A DNA stretch of 32,855 bases from an uncultured Afifella sp. (lineage in GTDB: Bacteria > Pseudomonadota > Alphaproteobacteria > Rhizobiales > Afifellaceae). Under the pieces are notes generated by a model. That model did no database searches and was not told the DNA's origin. It saw only the letters and a list, made by a program, of their open reading frames with translations. A program made the position numbers and the translations under genes. Below are positions 7,690 through 16,330 of this stretch, in pieces. Every line of letters begins with the position of its first letter. Position 1 is the first letter of the stretch. The stretch is taken from assembly GCA_945787495.1 (NCBI GenBank), contig CALZIL010000063.1, forward strand, positions 1 through 32,855, in the 5' to 3' direction.

Positions 7690-8697
7690 ATGACCGCTAA
7701 CAATCCACCAATCATGATCGATCGGGTGACAATCCCGCGCCGCGCCTTTCTGGCGCCGATGTCGGGCGTTTCCGATCTGCCGTTCCGCCGGCTGGCGGCC
7801 CGTTTTGGTGCCGGGCTGGTTTTCTCCGAAATGGTCGCTGGAGAGGAGGTTGCGCGCGGCTCTGAGGAGGCGCGATTGCGGGCGGAAGGTGAGGGGTTGG
7901 CGTGTCACGTTGTGCAACTGGCCGGCCGCGACGCCGACGCCATGCGCCAGGGCGTCAGGATCGCCGAGGCCGCCGGCGCTGCGATCATCGACATCAATAT
8001 GGGTTGTCCGGCCAAGCGCGTCATCAACGGCTATGCCGGCTCCGCCCTGATGCGCGATCTCGATCATGCGCTCCGGTTGATCGACGCGACCATCTCGGCG
8101 GCATCGGTGCCGGTGACGCTGAAGATGCGCCTGGGCTGGGATGCTGGTTCGATCAACGCGCCGGAACTTGCTGCAAGAGCGGAGGACGCCGGCATCGCCA
8201 TGGTCAGCGTGCACGGTCGCACGCGCTGCCAGTTCTACAAGGGCGCGGCGGACTGGGCGGCGATCAAGGCCGTCAAGCAAGCGGTATCGATCCCCGTTAT
8301 CGCCAATGGTGATCTGACCGATCCGTTTGCCGCACCGGGCATGCTGGCCCGCTCCGGCGCCGATGCGGTGATGATCGGCCGCGGCGCCTATGGACGGCCA
8401 TGGATTGTCGGCCAGGCTGCTGACGTACTGGCCGGCAAGACGCCGGTCGCCGATCCTGACGGCGACGAGCTTCTGGCCATCGTCCTGGAGCATTACGATG
8501 CTATCTTGAGCCATTACGGCCTGGTTCCGGGCATCCGCGTCGCCCGCAAGCATCTTGGCTGGTATCTGCACGGCCTTGGCAAGCACCCGGGCATTGCCGG
8601 CTTGCGACGCGCCACCCTGACGGGCGTCGATCCTGCCGCCGTTCGGCAGGCCCTGACGGCGGCGTTTTCACTCGCTGCGGAAAGAGCGGTGGCATGA
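7690..8697 (+). CDS. dusB: tRNA-dihydrouridine synthase (DusB/NifR3)
   Basis: The 335-residue flavoenzyme reduces uridines in tRNA to dihydrouridine. The N-terminal FMN-binding barrel begins with [15 protein letters not shown] at 21-35. The catalytic cysteine is C106 in [25 protein letters not shown] and PVIANGDL follow in family order, and a small helical domain closes the protein. In alphaproteobacteria this gene was first called nifR3 because it lies in front of ntrB and ntrC, exactly as here. Its stop overlaps the ntrB start as ATGA (8694-8697), so it is probably the first gene of a dusB-ntrB-ntrC operon. No strong Shine-Dalgarno sequence precedes its ATG. Confidence 0.97.
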
Positions 8698-9839
8698 GCC
8701 TTCCCGCGCACCATGACGCTGTCAGTTCAACAAGTTCGGCGATCCTCAACGCGCTTCCCCATCCGGTTGTGCTGGTTGATGCGGACGATGCGATCACCGG
8801 CGCCAATCAGGCTGCCGAACAGTTCCTGCAGGCCGGTGCCGCGGTGCTCAACCGCCACAAGCTCGATCATTTCATCCCCTTCGGCAGTCCGATATTCGGC
8901 CTTCTGGAGCAGGTCCGGGCGCGCCGATCGACGGTGACCGAATACCGCGTCGACATCAGCTCGCCACGCATTGGCGCTGACCGTGTCGTCGACATTTACG
9001 CTTCGCCTGTCGCTGAACATCCGGGCCACGTCACCATCATGTTCCTGCCGCGCTCGGTGACTGAAAAGATCGACCGCCAGCTGACCCACCGTGGCGCCGC
9101 GCGATCCGTCACTGGTCTGGCGGCGATGTTGGCGCATGAGATCAAGAACCCGCTATCGGGTATTCGCGGTGCGGCTCAGCTTCTGGAAGCAGGTGCCGAT
9201 GAAAATGACCGGACGCTGACCCGGCTCATCTGCGATGAGGCCGACCGCATTGTCGGTCTCGTTGACCGCATGGAGGTTTTTGCCGACGACCGGCCGGTGC
9301 CGCGCGAACCGGTCAATATCCATGTCGTGCTCGGCCGCGTGAAAACCCTGGCGGCCTCCGGCTTTGCCCGCGGCGTCCACATCAGGGAGGATTATGACCC
9401 GTCCCTGCCGCCAATTCATGCTAACCGCGACCAGCTCATTCAGGCCTTCATTAATCTTGTGAAGAACGCCGCAGAATCTGTTGCCGAACAAGATAATCAG
9501 GAGATTGTTTTTCAAACCGCTTTTCGACCGGGCATTCACCTTTCCGTGCCTGGCAGCGCCAGCAAGGTCAGTCTGCCGCTGGAAATTTCGGTCACCGACA
9601 ACGGGCCGGGCGTTCCCGACGACATGCAGCCCTATCTGTTCGATCCCTTTGTGACCTCCAAGGCCAACGGCAGCGGTCTCGGACTGGCTCTGGTCGCCAA
9701 GATCATTGGCGACCATGGCGGCGTGATTGAATGCAAATCAAAGCCGCACAAGACGACGTTCCGCATGCTGATGCCGGTCCATTCCGGCCCCGTCGAGTCG
9801 GGCATGGCGGGCGAAACCGATGTCGGAGACCTGCCATGA
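8694..9839 (+). CDS. ntrB: Nitrogen regulation sensor kinase NtrB
   Basis: The 381-residue soluble histidine kinase/phosphatase is controlled by PII proteins and phosphorylates NtrC when nitrogen is short. A PAS domain spans about residues 15-120. The phosphoacceptor is His148 in [19 protein letters not shown]. The ATPase domain shows the N box ([11 protein letters not shown]), the G1 box (DNGPGVPDD) and the G2 box (GSGLGLAL). No membrane segment is present, as expected. The start overlaps the dusB stop. The stop lies in an unusual repeated junction before ntrC, described separately. Partners are ntrC immediately downstream and the ntrY/ntrX pair after that. Confidence 0.97.
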
Positions 9840-9860
9840 TCCCCGGAGGCCTGCCATGAT
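9831..9860 (+). repeat. 20-bp-offset direct repeat at the ntrB/ntrC junction
   Basis: CTGCCATGATC occurs twice, beginning at 9831 and at 9851. The first copy contains the ntrB stop in ATGA form (9836-9839). The second contains the likely ntrC start and again reads ATGA (9856-9859). Between them lies the ntrC ribosome binding site GGAGG. The first ATG opens a seven-codon frame (Met-Ile-Pro-Gly-Gly-Leu-Pro) that ends at the TGA overlapping the ntrC start. Confidence 0.8.
9845..9849 (+). promoter_or_regulatory. Ribosome binding site deciding the ntrC start
   Basis: GGAGG at 9845-9849 is six bases before ATG 9856. It supports that start over the in-frame ATG at 9820, which lies within ntrB and would add twelve residues that do not belong to a receiver domain. 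Confidence 0.75.
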
Positions 9861-11298
9861 CAAAGGCACCATTCTCGTCGCCGACGATGATGCAGCGATC
9901 CGTACAGTGCTCAACCAGGCGCTGTCGCGCGCCGGCTATACGGTGCGCCTGACCTCCAATGCCGCAACTTTGTGGCACTGGGTGGCGGAAGGCGAGGGCG
10001 ACCTGATCGTCACAGATGTGGTGATGCCCGATGAGAACGCCTTCGATCTGTTGCCGCGCATCAAGCGGGCCCGGCCGGATCTGCCGATCATCGTCATGAG
10101 CGCCCAGAACACCTTCATGACGGCGATCAAGGCGTCGGAGAAGGGCGCCTATGAATACCTGCCCAAGCCCTTCGATTTAAAGGAACTGATCGCCATTGTC
10201 GGCCGCGCCATGAGCGAACCGCGCGGCGGTGCCGCCACGCCGGTCGAGGACGAGCAGGTCGAGGCCATACCGCTGGTCGGCCGTTCCGCCGCGATGCAGG
10301 ACATCTACCGGATGCTGGCGCGGCTGATGCAGACCGATCTGACGGTCATGATTTCCGGCGAATCCGGCACCGGCAAGGAACTGGTCGCCCGCGCGCTGCA
10401 CGATTACGGCAAGCGCCGCAACGGCCCTTTCGTCGCCGTCAATATGGCGGCGATCCCGCGTGAACTCATTGAATCAGAGCTTTTCGGCCACGAGCGCGGC
10501 GCTTTCACTGGCGCCCAGACGCGGGCCTCCGGTCGCTTTGAACAGGCGGAAGGCGGTACACTTTTTCTCGATGAGATCGGCGATATGCCGATGGATGCGC
10601 AAACCCGCCTCCTGCGGGTCCTGCAACAGGGCGAATACACCACCGTCGGCGGCCGCACGCCGATCCGCACCGATGTTCGGATTGTTGCCGCGACCAACAA
10701 GGATCTGCACCAGCAAATCCGTCAGGGTTTGTTCCGCGAGGATCTGTTTTTCCGGTTGAACGTTGTGCCGGTTCGACTGCCGCCGCTGCGCGAGCGCGCC
10801 GACGATATCCCCGATCTGGTGCGGCATTTCCTCTCCCGGGCCGAGAGCGAAGGCTTGCCGGTCAAGACCATCGACGCCGATGCGCTTCAGGCGTTGCAGC
10901 TTTATCGCTGGCCGGGAAACATACGCGAACTGGAAAATTTGATCCGCCGCCTGACGGCGCTTTATCCGGGTGAGACCATTGCCGCCGCCTTGATCGATGC
11001 TGAACTCAATCCGCTGCAGCCGAGCGCACCGGAAAATCCAATATCGGATGAAGAAACCCTGCGCGGCGCCGTCGAGCAGTATCTGTCATATTATTTTGCC
11101 GGTTTCGGCGATGATCTTCCGCCGCCGGGTCTTTATCACCGTGTTTTGCGCGAAATCGAGTTACCGCTGATCGCCGCCGCCCTCGGAGCAACCCGCGGCA
11201 ATCAGATCCGCGCTTCCGACTTGCTGGGGCTAAACCGCAACACTCTGCGCAAGAAAATCCGCGATCTGGACCTGCAAGTGGTGCGTGGTCAGCGCTGA
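9856..11298 (+). CDS. ntrC: Nitrogen regulation response regulator NtrC
   Basis: The 480-residue sigma-54 activator turns on nitrogen-assimilation promoters when phosphorylated by NtrB. The receiver domain has its acidic pocket at Asp10-Asp12, the phosphoacceptor Asp54 in [10 protein letters not shown] and the conserved Lys in YLPKPFD. The AAA+ domain contains the Walker A loop GESGTGKE, the sigma-54-contacting GAFTGA loop and the Walker [12 protein letters not shown] Fis-type helix-turn-helix closes the protein around [20 protein letters not shown]. All key parts are intact, unlike NtrX, which has no GAFTGA. It is the last gene of the dusB-ntrB-ntrC set; 79 bases separate it from the ntrY remnant. 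Confidence 0.98.
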
Positions 11299-11377: not shown

Positions 11378-13535
11378 ATGCTTGCGAACCAGGATCGGCT
11401 GAACACGATGACCTTGACCGCTGCGGACGAACCGCAAATCGGCCAACGCGACACCGCTTTCCGCGAGCACAACCGAATCGCACGCGCTATCGGCCTTCTG
11501 GTCGTACTGATTGCGCTGGCGGCCTCGGCGGGTTCGTTCCTCGTTTTGACCGGCGGCACCCAAATTGAACCGACACCGTCGGTCGTTCGCAATGCCGGCA
11601 TCATCAACGGCATTGTCGTTTTCGGACTTATCGCCGTTCTTGGCTATGAAGCTTATGGCCTGTGGCTGGCGCGTCAACGTGGCCGCGCCGCCGCCCGCTT
11701 GCATGTGCGTATCGTCGCTCTTTTTTCCATCGTTGCCGCGCTTCCCGCGATCCTTGTTGCGATCATTGCCTCCATCACGCTCGACAAGGGCCTCGACCGC
11801 TGGTTTTCAGATCGCACCCTGGCGATCATCGACACCTCCCGCAACGTTGCCCAGGCCTATATCGCGTCGCGACCGCGCCGTGATTTTGGAAGGCAAGACC
11901 CGGACCAATCTCGCCGTGCCGCCGCCGCCGGAAAAAATCTTCACCGAAGCCGATAAGGGTGATCCCTCGCTGATCGCGCCTGGAACGACCAACCTCGTCG
12001 GCGGCGTGCTCAAGCTGGCCAATTTCGACGACGTCTACCTTTATCTTGCCCGTCCAATCGACCCGCGCGTCACGCGTCACGTCAGGCTGACCAATGAAAA
12101 TGCCGAGGAATACCGCAAGCTTCTGGAAAACCGCTTCGGCGTCCAGGTCGCCTTCGCCATACTCTTCGTCGGTATGGCGCTGGTTGTCTTCTTGTCCGCG
12201 ATATGGATTGGCCTCGGCTTCGCAAATCGGCTTGTTGCGCCCATCCGGCGCCTGATTTCCGCTGCCAGTGACGTCTCCACGGGCAATCTCGACGTACAGG
12301 TGCCGGTCCACGGCGCCACCGGCGACATCGCCTCGCTGGCTGACACGTTCAACACCATGACCAGCCAGCTGAAAACCCAGCGCAACGACGTTTTGACCGC
12401 CAATACGCAGCTTGATGAAAGGCGACGTTTTACCGAAGCGGTGCTGTCGGGCGTATCGGCCGGGGTGATCGGCCTCGATCCGGCGGGCAAGGTCACGCTG
12501 GCCAACGAGCCGGCTCTGGTGGCTTTGGGGCTGCAGGAATCGGATCTGATCGACCAGCGCCTTGCCGATCTGGTGCCCGAATTCACTACGCTTATCGACG
12601 AGGTTCGGTTGCGCGGCCGCGGACCGGCACTGGGTCAGGTCCAGCTGGCCGGCGCAGGCGGCCAGCGCACTCTCAACGTTCAGGTGACGCAGGAATGGGC
12701 CGACCACAGCGACGATGGCATGGTGGTGACGCTGGATGACATCACCGATCTTGTGGGTGCCCAGCGGCGGTCGGCTTGGGCCGATGTGGCACGCCGCATC
12801 GCCCATGAGATCAAGAACCCGCTGACGCCGATTCAGCTGTCGGCGGAAAGGCTGAAACGCCGCTACGGATCGCGCATTGCCGAAGACGACCGCGGTGTAT
12901 TCGATCAATGCACCGATACCATCGTTCGTCAGGTCGGAGATATTCGCCGCATGGTCGATGAATTCTCCGCCTTTGCCCGCATGCCCAAGGCCGTCATGGA
13001 ATACCGTGACCTCCGCGAGGTCGTGCGTGAAGCCGTATTTCTGCAGGAAGTAGGCAATCCCGATATCCGCTTCCAGCTTGACAGCCCGCCCGATCCCGTC
13101 ATGGCACGGGTTGACCATCGTCTCGTGACTCAGGCGCTGACGAACATCGTCAAGAACGCCACCGAGGCAATCGAGGCAGTGCCACAGGCCGAGCGCGAAG
13201 CTGGCCTGATCGTGATCCGGATTCGGCCGCAGGAGGACACGGCGATCATCGAAGTGGAAGATAACGGCAAGGGATTGCCCAAGCATGATCGAGACAGCCT
13301 GCTTGAGCCTTATATGACGACCCGCGAGAAGGGCACCGGGCTCGGCTTGGCGATCGTCCGCAAGGTTATGGAAGAGCACGGCGGTACGATCGACCTGCTT
13401 GACGCGGTGCCGGCGGAAAATGGCAATCGAGGCGCTGTGGTGCGACTGACCTTTCCCGATGGGAAGGTGACGGTCAGCGACGCTGACGAAGGTGCTCAAT
13501 CCGGTGAGGGTATGGATGTGAGGGAGGTGGTCTAG
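11378..13535 (+). pseudogene. ntrY: ntrY sensor kinase, frameshifted and with part of the sensor region missing
   Basis: NtrY is the membrane histidine kinase that pairs with NtrX. The N-terminal part reads in one frame from ATG 11378 (or 11408) and contains three membrane helices, ending sensibly at about 11863 (NVAQAYIA), then runs into junk and a stop at 11954-11956. The rest reads in the +1 frame from about 11871: AVILEGKTRTNLAVPPPP, the periplasmic end, a fourth helix (VAFAILFVGMALVVFLSAIW), HAMP, PAS, the His box [15 protein letters not shown], the N box NIVKNATEAI and the G boxes DNGKGL and GTGLGLAI. Comparing the order with typical NtrY, roughly 50 residues of periplasmic sensor between the helix end and AVILEG seem absent. 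So the break looks like a deletion not divisible by three, not only a one-base slip. A sequencing or assembly error cannot be excluded. An internal GTG at 11880 could start a soluble kinase half. Confidence 0.82.
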
Positions 13536-13538
13536 CCC

Positions 13539-14900
13539 ATGGCAACCGATATTCTGGTCGTCGATGACGAAGCCGACATCCGTGACCTCGTTTCCGGCAT
13601 TCTGGAAGACGAAGGCCATGGAACCCGGGCAGCCGGCAACAGCGATTCAGCGCTGGCTGCCATAGCAGCGCGCCGCCCGAGCCTGGTGTTTCTCGACATC
13701 TGGCTGCAGGGCAGCCGGCTTGACGGACTGGCGCTCCTCGATGTCATCCATGAGCAGCATCCGGATTTGCCGGTGGTCATCATTTCCGGCCATGGCAACA
13801 TCGAAACAGCGGTCTCGGCCATCAAGCGCGGTGCTTATGACTACATTGAAAAGCCATTCAAGGCGGACCGGCTTGTGCTGCTCGCCGACCGGGCGCTGGA
13901 AGCCTCCAGGATGCGCAAGGAAATTGCCGATCTGAAGCACAAGTCCGGCGAGATCATCGGTCTGATCGGCTCGTCGAGCGCGATGAATCAATTGCGCGGT
14001 GCCATCGAGCGCATCGCGCCGACCAACAGCCGGGTCATGATTTTCGGCCCATCCGGCGCCGGCAAGGAACAGGTTGCACGCGCCATACATGCGGCTTCAT
14101 CGCGGGCGCAAGGGCCGCTCGTGGCTCTCAATGCGGCGGCCATTACGCCGGAGCGGATGGAACATGAGCTGTTCGGCACCGAAACCGTCAACGGGTCCGG
14201 TGGCAAGGTCGGTGCGCTTGAGCAGGCGCATGGCGGCACCTTCTATCTTGATGAAATCGCCGATATGCCGCGCGAAACACAAAACAAGATCCTGCGCGTT
14301 CTTGTCGACCAGACCTTTGAGCGCGTCGGCGGCTCCACCAATGTCACGGTCGATGTCAGAATCCTCTCATCGACGGCGCGTGACCTTGAGGTGGAGATCA
14401 ATGAGGGCCGCTTGCGTGAAGATCTTTTCCATCGCCTGAACGTGGTTCCGCTACGTGTGCCCTCGCTGGCTGAACGCCGCGAAGATATTCCCCAACTGGT
14501 GGCCCATTTCGTCGAGCAGGTTTCCGTGTCAGCCGGGCTTCCGGTCCGCGGGATCGGCGATGACGCCATGGCTGTTCTCCAGGCGCATGACTGGCCAGGC
14601 AATCTGCGCCAGCTGCGCAACAATGTTGAGCGGTTGATGATTTTGGCGCGCGGCGATCCGGAAGCAACGATATCGGCCGAGATGCTGCCGCCGGAGATCG
14701 GCGAGATTCTTCCTGCCACGCCGGCGCAGGGTGCGGCGCAAATCATGTCGCTGCCGCTTCGTGAAGCACGGGAAGTGTTTGAACGCGAATATCTTCAGGC
14801 GCAGATCAATCGCTTTGGCGGAAATATTTCGCGCACCGCCGAATTTGTCGGCATGGAGCGATCGGCCCTGCACCGCAAACTGAAAAGTCTCGGCGTCTAG
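13539..14900 (+). CDS. ntrX: Response regulator NtrX
   Basis: The 453-residue regulator is the partner of NtrY and governs nitrogen, redox and envelope genes in alphaproteobacteria. The receiver has Asp10/Glu11 and phosphoacceptor Asp53 in VFLDIWLQG. The AAA+ domain has Walker A GPSGAGKE and Walker B FYLDEIADMP. Where sigma-54 activators carry GAFTGA, this protein has TETVNGSGGKVGALEQ, so it probably does not engage sigma-54, as is usual for alphaproteobacterial NtrX. The C-terminal Fis-like helix-turn-helix contains GGNISRTAEFVGMERSALHRKL. A GGAGG at 13523-13527, inside the end of ntrY, precedes the ATG by eleven bases. The gene is intact although its kinase gene is broken. Confidence 0.97.
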   Translation: MATDILVVDDEADIRDLVSGILEDEGHGTRAAGNSDSALAAIAARRPSLVFLDIWLQGSRLDGLALLDVIHEQHPDLPVVIISGHGNIETAVSAIKRGAYDYIEKPFKADRLVLLADRALEASRMRKEIADLKHKSGEIIGLIGSSSAMNQLRGAIERIAPTNSRVMIFGPSGAGKEQVARAIHAASSRAQGPLVALNAAAITPERMEHELFGTETVNGSGGKVGALEQAHGGTFYLDEIADMPRETQNKILRVLVDQTFERVGGSTNVTVDVRILSSTARDLEVEINEGRLREDLFHRLNVVPLRVPSLAERREDIPQLVAHFVEQVSVSAGLPVRGIGDDAMAVLQAHDWPGNLRQLRNNVERLMILARGDPEATISAEMLPPEIGEILPATPAQGAAQIMSLPLREAREVFEREYLQAQINRFGGNISRTAEFVGMERSALHRKLKSLGV

Positions 14901-14953: not shown

Positions 14954-16330
14954 ATGCGTGTTATCATTTGCGGAGCGGGCCAGGTTGGATCCGGCATCGC
15001 CGAAAAACTGTCGGCGGAAAACAATGATGTAACGGTGGTTGATACATCAACTCGGCTGGTCAACAGGATCCGCGACACGCTCGACGTGCGTGGTTTTGTC
15101 GGCCACGGCGCGCATCCCGACGTGCTGGCCCGGGCCGGCGCCGGCGAAGCCGACATGATCGTCGCCGTCACGCTTTATGACGAAGTCAACATGGTTGCAT
15201 GCCAGGTCGCCCATTCGCTTTTCAACGTGCCGACCAAGGTCGCCCGTGTGCGCGCGCAAGGGTATCTGGCCAAACATTACCGCAACCTGTTTTCCCGCGA
15301 GCACATGCCGATCGACGTCATTATTTCGCCTGAAGTCGAAGTCGGTGAAATGGTTCTGCGGCGGCTGGCCCAGCCGGGTGCGATCGAGACTATACCCTTT
15401 GCCGACGACAAGGTGACGGTGCTCGGCATTGCGTGTGACGATGATTGCCCGATCATCGACACGCCGCTGCGCCAGCTGACGGAGCTGTTTCCCGACCTCA
15501 CGGCGACGGTTGTTGGTATCCTGCGCAATGACAGCCTTTTCGTGCCGCGATCGGCCGATCAGATGATGGCCGGCGACATCGTCTATGTGATGACATCGAC
15601 CGAACGCGTGAAGCGCACGCTCACCATATTCGGCAAGGAAGAGCAGACCGGCTCGCGGATCCTGATCGCCGGCGGCGGCAATATCGGCCTCTATGTGGCC
15701 GAAAATCTTGAACAGCGCAGCAGCCGGGCAAAGATCAAGATTATCGAGCTCAGCCATCCGCGGGCTGTCGAGATTGCCGAACGCCTCGATCGGACGGTCG
15801 TGCTGAACGGTTCGGCCATGGACGCTGCGATTCTGCACGAAGCCGATATCGGCGAGGTCGACACGATGGTTGCGCTGACCAACGACGACAAGGTCAACAT
15901 CCTGTCCTGTGTCATGGCCAGGAAACTTGGCGCCCGTCGAAATCTTTGCTTGTTGAACGATGCAGCCTTTCCACCACTGGCTGGCACGATGGGGATTGAC
16001 GCTGTTATCAATCCCCGGTCCGTGACAATCTCGCGGATCCTGCAGCATGTCCGGCGCGGGCGCATTCAGACCGTCCACACCATCCAGGACGGGGCGGCCG
16101 AGGTGATCGAGGCCGAAGCTCTTGAAACCTCGCCGCTGGTTGGCCGGCCTCTGCGCTCGCTTGATCTGCCGGGCGGCATGCGGATTGGCACCATCGTGCA
16201 CAAGGGAGAGGTGATTACGCCGACAGGTGAAAGCCAGATCGCCCCCGGTGACAGGTTCATCATATTCGCGACCGCCGACCAGGTTCCAAAAGTGGAGCAG
16301 ATGGCGCGTGTCAGTCTTGAATATTTCTGA
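14954..16330 (+). CDS. trkA: Trk potassium uptake regulator TrkA
   Basis: The 458-residue cytoplasmic protein is the NAD(H)- and ATP-binding gating subunit of the Trk potassium transporter. It consists of two RCK units in tandem. The first nucleotide-binding glycine motif is GAGQVG at 7-12 and the second is GGGNIG at 240-245, each followed by a Rossmann fold and a small C-terminal RCK_C domain (DDKVTVLGIA and the last 80 residues). Both halves keep their acidic residue after strand 2 (VVD at 28-30). The membrane partner trkH follows 19 bases downstream. The gene sits 53 bases after ntrX, and an ntrYX-trkA order is common in alphaproteobacteria, so co-transcription with ntrX is likely. Confidence 0.97.
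   Translation: MRVIICGAGQVGSGIAEKLSAENNDVTVVDTSTRLVNRIRDTLDVRGFVGHGAHPDVLARAGAGEADMIVAVTLYDEVNMVACQVAHSLFNVPTKVARVRAQGYLAKHYRNLFSREHMPIDVIISPEVEVGEMVLRRLAQPGAIETIPFADDKVTVLGIACDDDCPIIDTPLRQLTELFPDLTATVVGILRNDSLFVPRSADQMMAGDIVYVMTSTERVKRTLTIFGKEEQTGSRILIAGGGNIGLYVAENLEQRSSRAKIKIIELSHPRAVEIAERLDRTVVLNGSAMDAAILHEADIGEVDTMVALTNDDKVNILSCVMARKLGARRNLCLLNDAAFPPLAGTMGIDAVINPRSVTISRILQHVRRGRIQTVHTIQDGAAEVIEAEALETSPLVGRPLRSLDLPGGMRIGTIVHKGEVITPTGESQIAPGDRFIIFATADQVPKVEQMARVSLEYF

Follow-up and report, generated by a model that had tools for sequence, protein, structure and literature searches.

A frame break in ntrY of an uncultured Afifella draft genome is most likely an artefact of assembly

NtrY is described as a kinase of the membrane that has a periplasmic domain as well as HAMP and PAS domains on the inside (PMC5892882). 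The ntrY gene in a stretch of 32,855 nucleotides from an uncultured Afifella sp. (hereafter referred to as the window; contig C63 of the draft genome) is divided between two reading frames, which raises the question of whether the organism has lost part of the sensor of this kinase or whether the break was introduced during assembly. An earlier sequence-only reading of the window had described ntrY as broken, which would leave NtrX without its membrane kinase or with a soluble half of it. The locus was compared with its counterparts in the family and the order, and the same assembly was searched for comparable breaks in other genes.

The gene order at the locus is ntrB-ntrC-ntrY-ntrX-trkA, and the assignment to NtrY rests on homology and on the place of the gene in this ntrBC-ntrYX-trkA cluster. 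The two reading frames of ntrY lie across positions 11378-13535 of the forward strand, as had been recognised from the sequence alone, and the switch between them can be placed at 11863-11865. The features of the locus are as follows.

8694 to 9839, forward strand: ntrB, intact, 72% identical to a relative
9820 to 11298, forward strand: ntrC, intact, 81% identical to a relative
11378 to 11863, forward strand: N-terminal part of ntrY, which matches the relatives as far as AYI and comprises three membrane helices plus the first portion of the periplasmic domain
11863 to 11865, forward strand: ntrY junction, with 1 nt against 51 codons in nine family relatives, and a frame shift
11865 to 13535, forward strand: C-terminal part of ntrY in the other frame, comprising the last portion of the periplasmic domain, membrane helix 4, HAMP, PAS, HisKA and HATPase_c
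13539 to 14900, forward strand: ntrX, intact, 80% identical over 453 aa to the relative G008
14954 to 16330, forward strand: trkA, intact, 80% identical over 458 aa

The two downstream genes, ntrX and trkA, are intact, as stated earlier. Within the N-terminal part of ntrY, which carries three hydrophobic segments, homology to the relatives ends with the last codon of AYI (ATC, 11861-11863); the open reading frame itself extends over 11378-11956 (192 aa), running out of register past 11863 until the stop at 11956. The motif RRDRAVILEG opens the C-terminal homology from 11865, and this part, which ends with the stop codon at 13533-13535, is 71% identical to G008. The Pfam family NtrY_N (PF19312, 291 positions) is matched by the N-terminal part over positions 4-130 and by the C-terminal part over 211-290, the latter match falling slightly below the curated cut-off, while an intact relative covers positions 3-290 in one piece. 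Positions 131-210 are thus uncovered in the window, and a complete NtrY_N followed by HAMP, PAS, HisKA and HATPase_c was not found there in a single frame.

The size of the loss was estimated from an alignment with nine Afifellaceae relatives carrying ntrY, all of which have exactly 51 residues, in one frame, between AYV and (R/H)RD. A single nucleotide stands in place of these 51 codons in the window, so that about 152 nt are absent, assuming that the ancestor of the window had the usual 51 codons; the earlier figure of roughly 50 residues was accurate. Three does not divide this length evenly, so that the frame of ntrY shifts, in agreement with the kind of deletion that had been proposed. 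The region has approximately the same length and an uninterrupted frame in the genomes of the wider order included in the same alignment.

The occurrence of split ntrY genes was also surveyed across the order, where 388 of 398 genomes have an ntrY match. Among the approximately 150 best matches listed, that of the window alone is split. When split and partial matches were followed up, ntrY was found in different frames of the same contig in the window and in two further genomes, G397 (fragmented, 80% complete) and G375 (one contig, 88% complete); in G331, of the same order, the match is cut short, and the remaining split or partial cases consist of separate contigs, paralogues or weak matches. 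Two of the three genomes G397, G375 and G331 are incomplete drafts. Within the order, split ntrY genes are rare. The short form of the sensor in one frame was absent from the aligned genomes and from the best listed matches of the survey. The closest matches in a scan of named genomes were those of three Afifella relatives, and through such Afifella members the single family to which the nearest relatives of the window belong was recognised as Afifellaceae. In one member of this family, G005, neither NtrY nor NtrX has a match as strong as expected of an orthologue (the best hit for NtrX has 35% identity); either the genes are truly absent or they fall in a gap of its 280-contig draft.

The junction itself is blunt, with no N and, in relatives, no long repeat at its edges. 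The palindrome TCGCGA (GTCGCGAC), pointed out earlier as a plausible slippage site, is indeed present at the junction; its role in slippage does not hold, since it sits inside the conserved RRD codons, where CGCGAC is found in most relatives as well, and slippage there would leave the 152-nt loss unexplained. The palindrome is ordinary coding sequence. Deletion between direct repeats was also considered and set aside, as the words shared by the two edges are just 5-8 nt long in the relatives, from which they had to be judged because the lost sequence of the window is not open to inspection.

The draft to which the window belongs comprises 3.87 Mb in 432 contigs (95% complete, 1.8% contamination). 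Seven short N runs of 3-56 bases occur in the 951 kb of it that were read, none of them in the window, and indicate that the contigs were scaffolded. A search for frame breaks was performed with tblastn, comparing these approximately 951 kb (about a quarter of the genome) with 1.6 Mb of the relative G008, which allowed 192 gene loci, a few of them spurious open reading frames, to be tested. Besides ntrY, three genes were found to be frame-split with strong homology on both sides, namely fusA, rplK and sufS. In fusA, encoding EF-G (contig C42, 14105-16176), 16 nt are lost out of frame; apart from it, the genome has a single full-length EF-G-like hit, of just 33% identity, which leaves fusA as the sole close EF-G gene. 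In rplK (contig C42, 1315-1721), 19 nt are lost, again out of frame, and no second copy was found in the genome. In sufS (contig C27, 1096-2338), the frame is broken by a tandem duplication whose period is 31 nt, and cysD (contig C32, 5696-6610) contains an exact 48-nt tandem duplication and, further along, a 56-base N gap. On the contig that carries sufS, an exact 57-nt tandem duplication is also present from position 2761, where another reading frame begins. The remaining genes that had been flagged were discarded as antisense open reading frames, wrong start extensions or N gaps.

In fusA, rplK, sufS and ntrY alike, the sequence on either side of the break differs from the relative predominantly at third codon positions, as in live genes, which shows that these genes have not decayed. 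When approximately 130 genes of four relatives were put through the same test, no true break was found. Three places were flagged in this control, one of them a paralogue match and the other two lacking the third-position pattern in their upstream part, as would be expected of a wrongly extended open reading frame. Four of about 190 loci (approximately 2%) are thus frame-split in the draft against none of about 130 in the relatives, a comparison that is small and suggestive, its weight being carried by fusA and rplK. At this rate, one break in a window of 33 kb is unsurprising. EF-G is hardly dispensable for a living cell, and at least some of the breaks in the assembly must therefore be technical; breaks like that of ntrY in near-indispensable genes of the same assembly, as would be expected of an assembly artefact, are found in both fusA and rplK.

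On this evidence the break in ntrY is most likely an artefact of assembly and not a lost sensor, and the possibility of an assembly collapse, which the sequence-only reading had mentioned in passing, becomes the favoured one. In the scaffolded draft, the pieces on either side of the middle of the region coding for the periplasmic domain would have been joined directly; the direct join would drop about 152 nt and thereby shift the frame, while the organism itself would very probably encode an ordinary, intact NtrY kinase beside NtrX. The ntrY break fits among the other joins: it is blunt, the gene shows no other decay and the genes around it (ntrX, ntrB, ntrC and trkA) are intact, and we infer that the same technical cause lies behind it. 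Pseudogenes born of assembly are a documented problem (Cooley and Wright 2024, PMC11017572); as in the cases described there, the draft is fragmented and a conserved gene has a broken frame in it alongside near-indispensable genes, whereas the loss of about 152 nt at once has the look of a bad join and not of a single-base indel. Compared with the alphaproteobacterial NtrY of the NtrYX system, the gene order is the same and all domains are recognisable in the window, but some 51 periplasmic residues are missing and two frames are used.

The principal alternative, which we regard as improbable though well worth weighing, is that the sequenced lineage really did lose about 152 bp, and recently, which would inactivate NtrY while NtrX and NtrBC are kept. 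A three-helix membrane fragment would then be made, perhaps with a poorly initiated, membrane-anchored kinase fragment, and NtrX would be phosphorylated by other donors. The clean junction is compatible with such an event, as is the size of the loss, which exceeds that of the other two deletions in the assembly and, with the lack of an N gap in the window, also speaks against a bad join. The missing segment was searched for elsewhere in the same genome and was not found (best hit, E 0.74), and the state of G005, itself a draft, suggests that members of the family may be able to do without the system. Against a real deletion stand the comparable breaks in fusA and rplK, the rarity of split ntrY in the order and the condition of the rest of the gene, in which the signs of a natural pseudogene (further stops, frame breaks, lost third-position bias) were not found, although a very recent deletion would look alike. 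With frame-breaking joins in the sole close EF-G gene and the sole rplK of the same assembly, it does not follow from the break that the organism has NtrX without its kinase.

It is very unlikely that a mixed population contained both intact and deleted ntrY and that the assembler took the deleted form; this could happen if the draft came from a mixed sample, with which the number of contigs is compatible, but the breaks in fusA, rplK and sufS and the duplication in cysD would need the same unlikely choice each time. A functional NtrY with a shortened sensor, made in two parts or decoded by frameshifting, can practically be dismissed: coding-type divergence is kept in both parts, but about one-third of the sensor region is gone even though the last helix is retained, the short form occurs in no relative, no slippery run is obvious by eye at the junction and no Shine-Dalgarno sequence is evident for starts in the second frame near it.

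The observation of a broken ntrY is thus correct, and its best explanation is an ordinary one, namely that pieces of the draft were wrongly joined. The finding calls for caution, in that lost signalling genes should not be read from a draft in which fusA and rplK are among the frame-split loci. If the deletion were true, the lost part would fall in the sensor domain, given the periplasmic-domain architecture of NtrY (PMC5892882), and the N-terminal product would be a membrane fragment of 192 aa ending at 11956. A product begun at GTG 11880 would not be the soluble kinase half proposed earlier, as both HAMP and membrane helix 4 (at residues about 90-108) would be retained in it. The locus would then represent a natural case, of modest interest, of NtrX being kept without its kinase.
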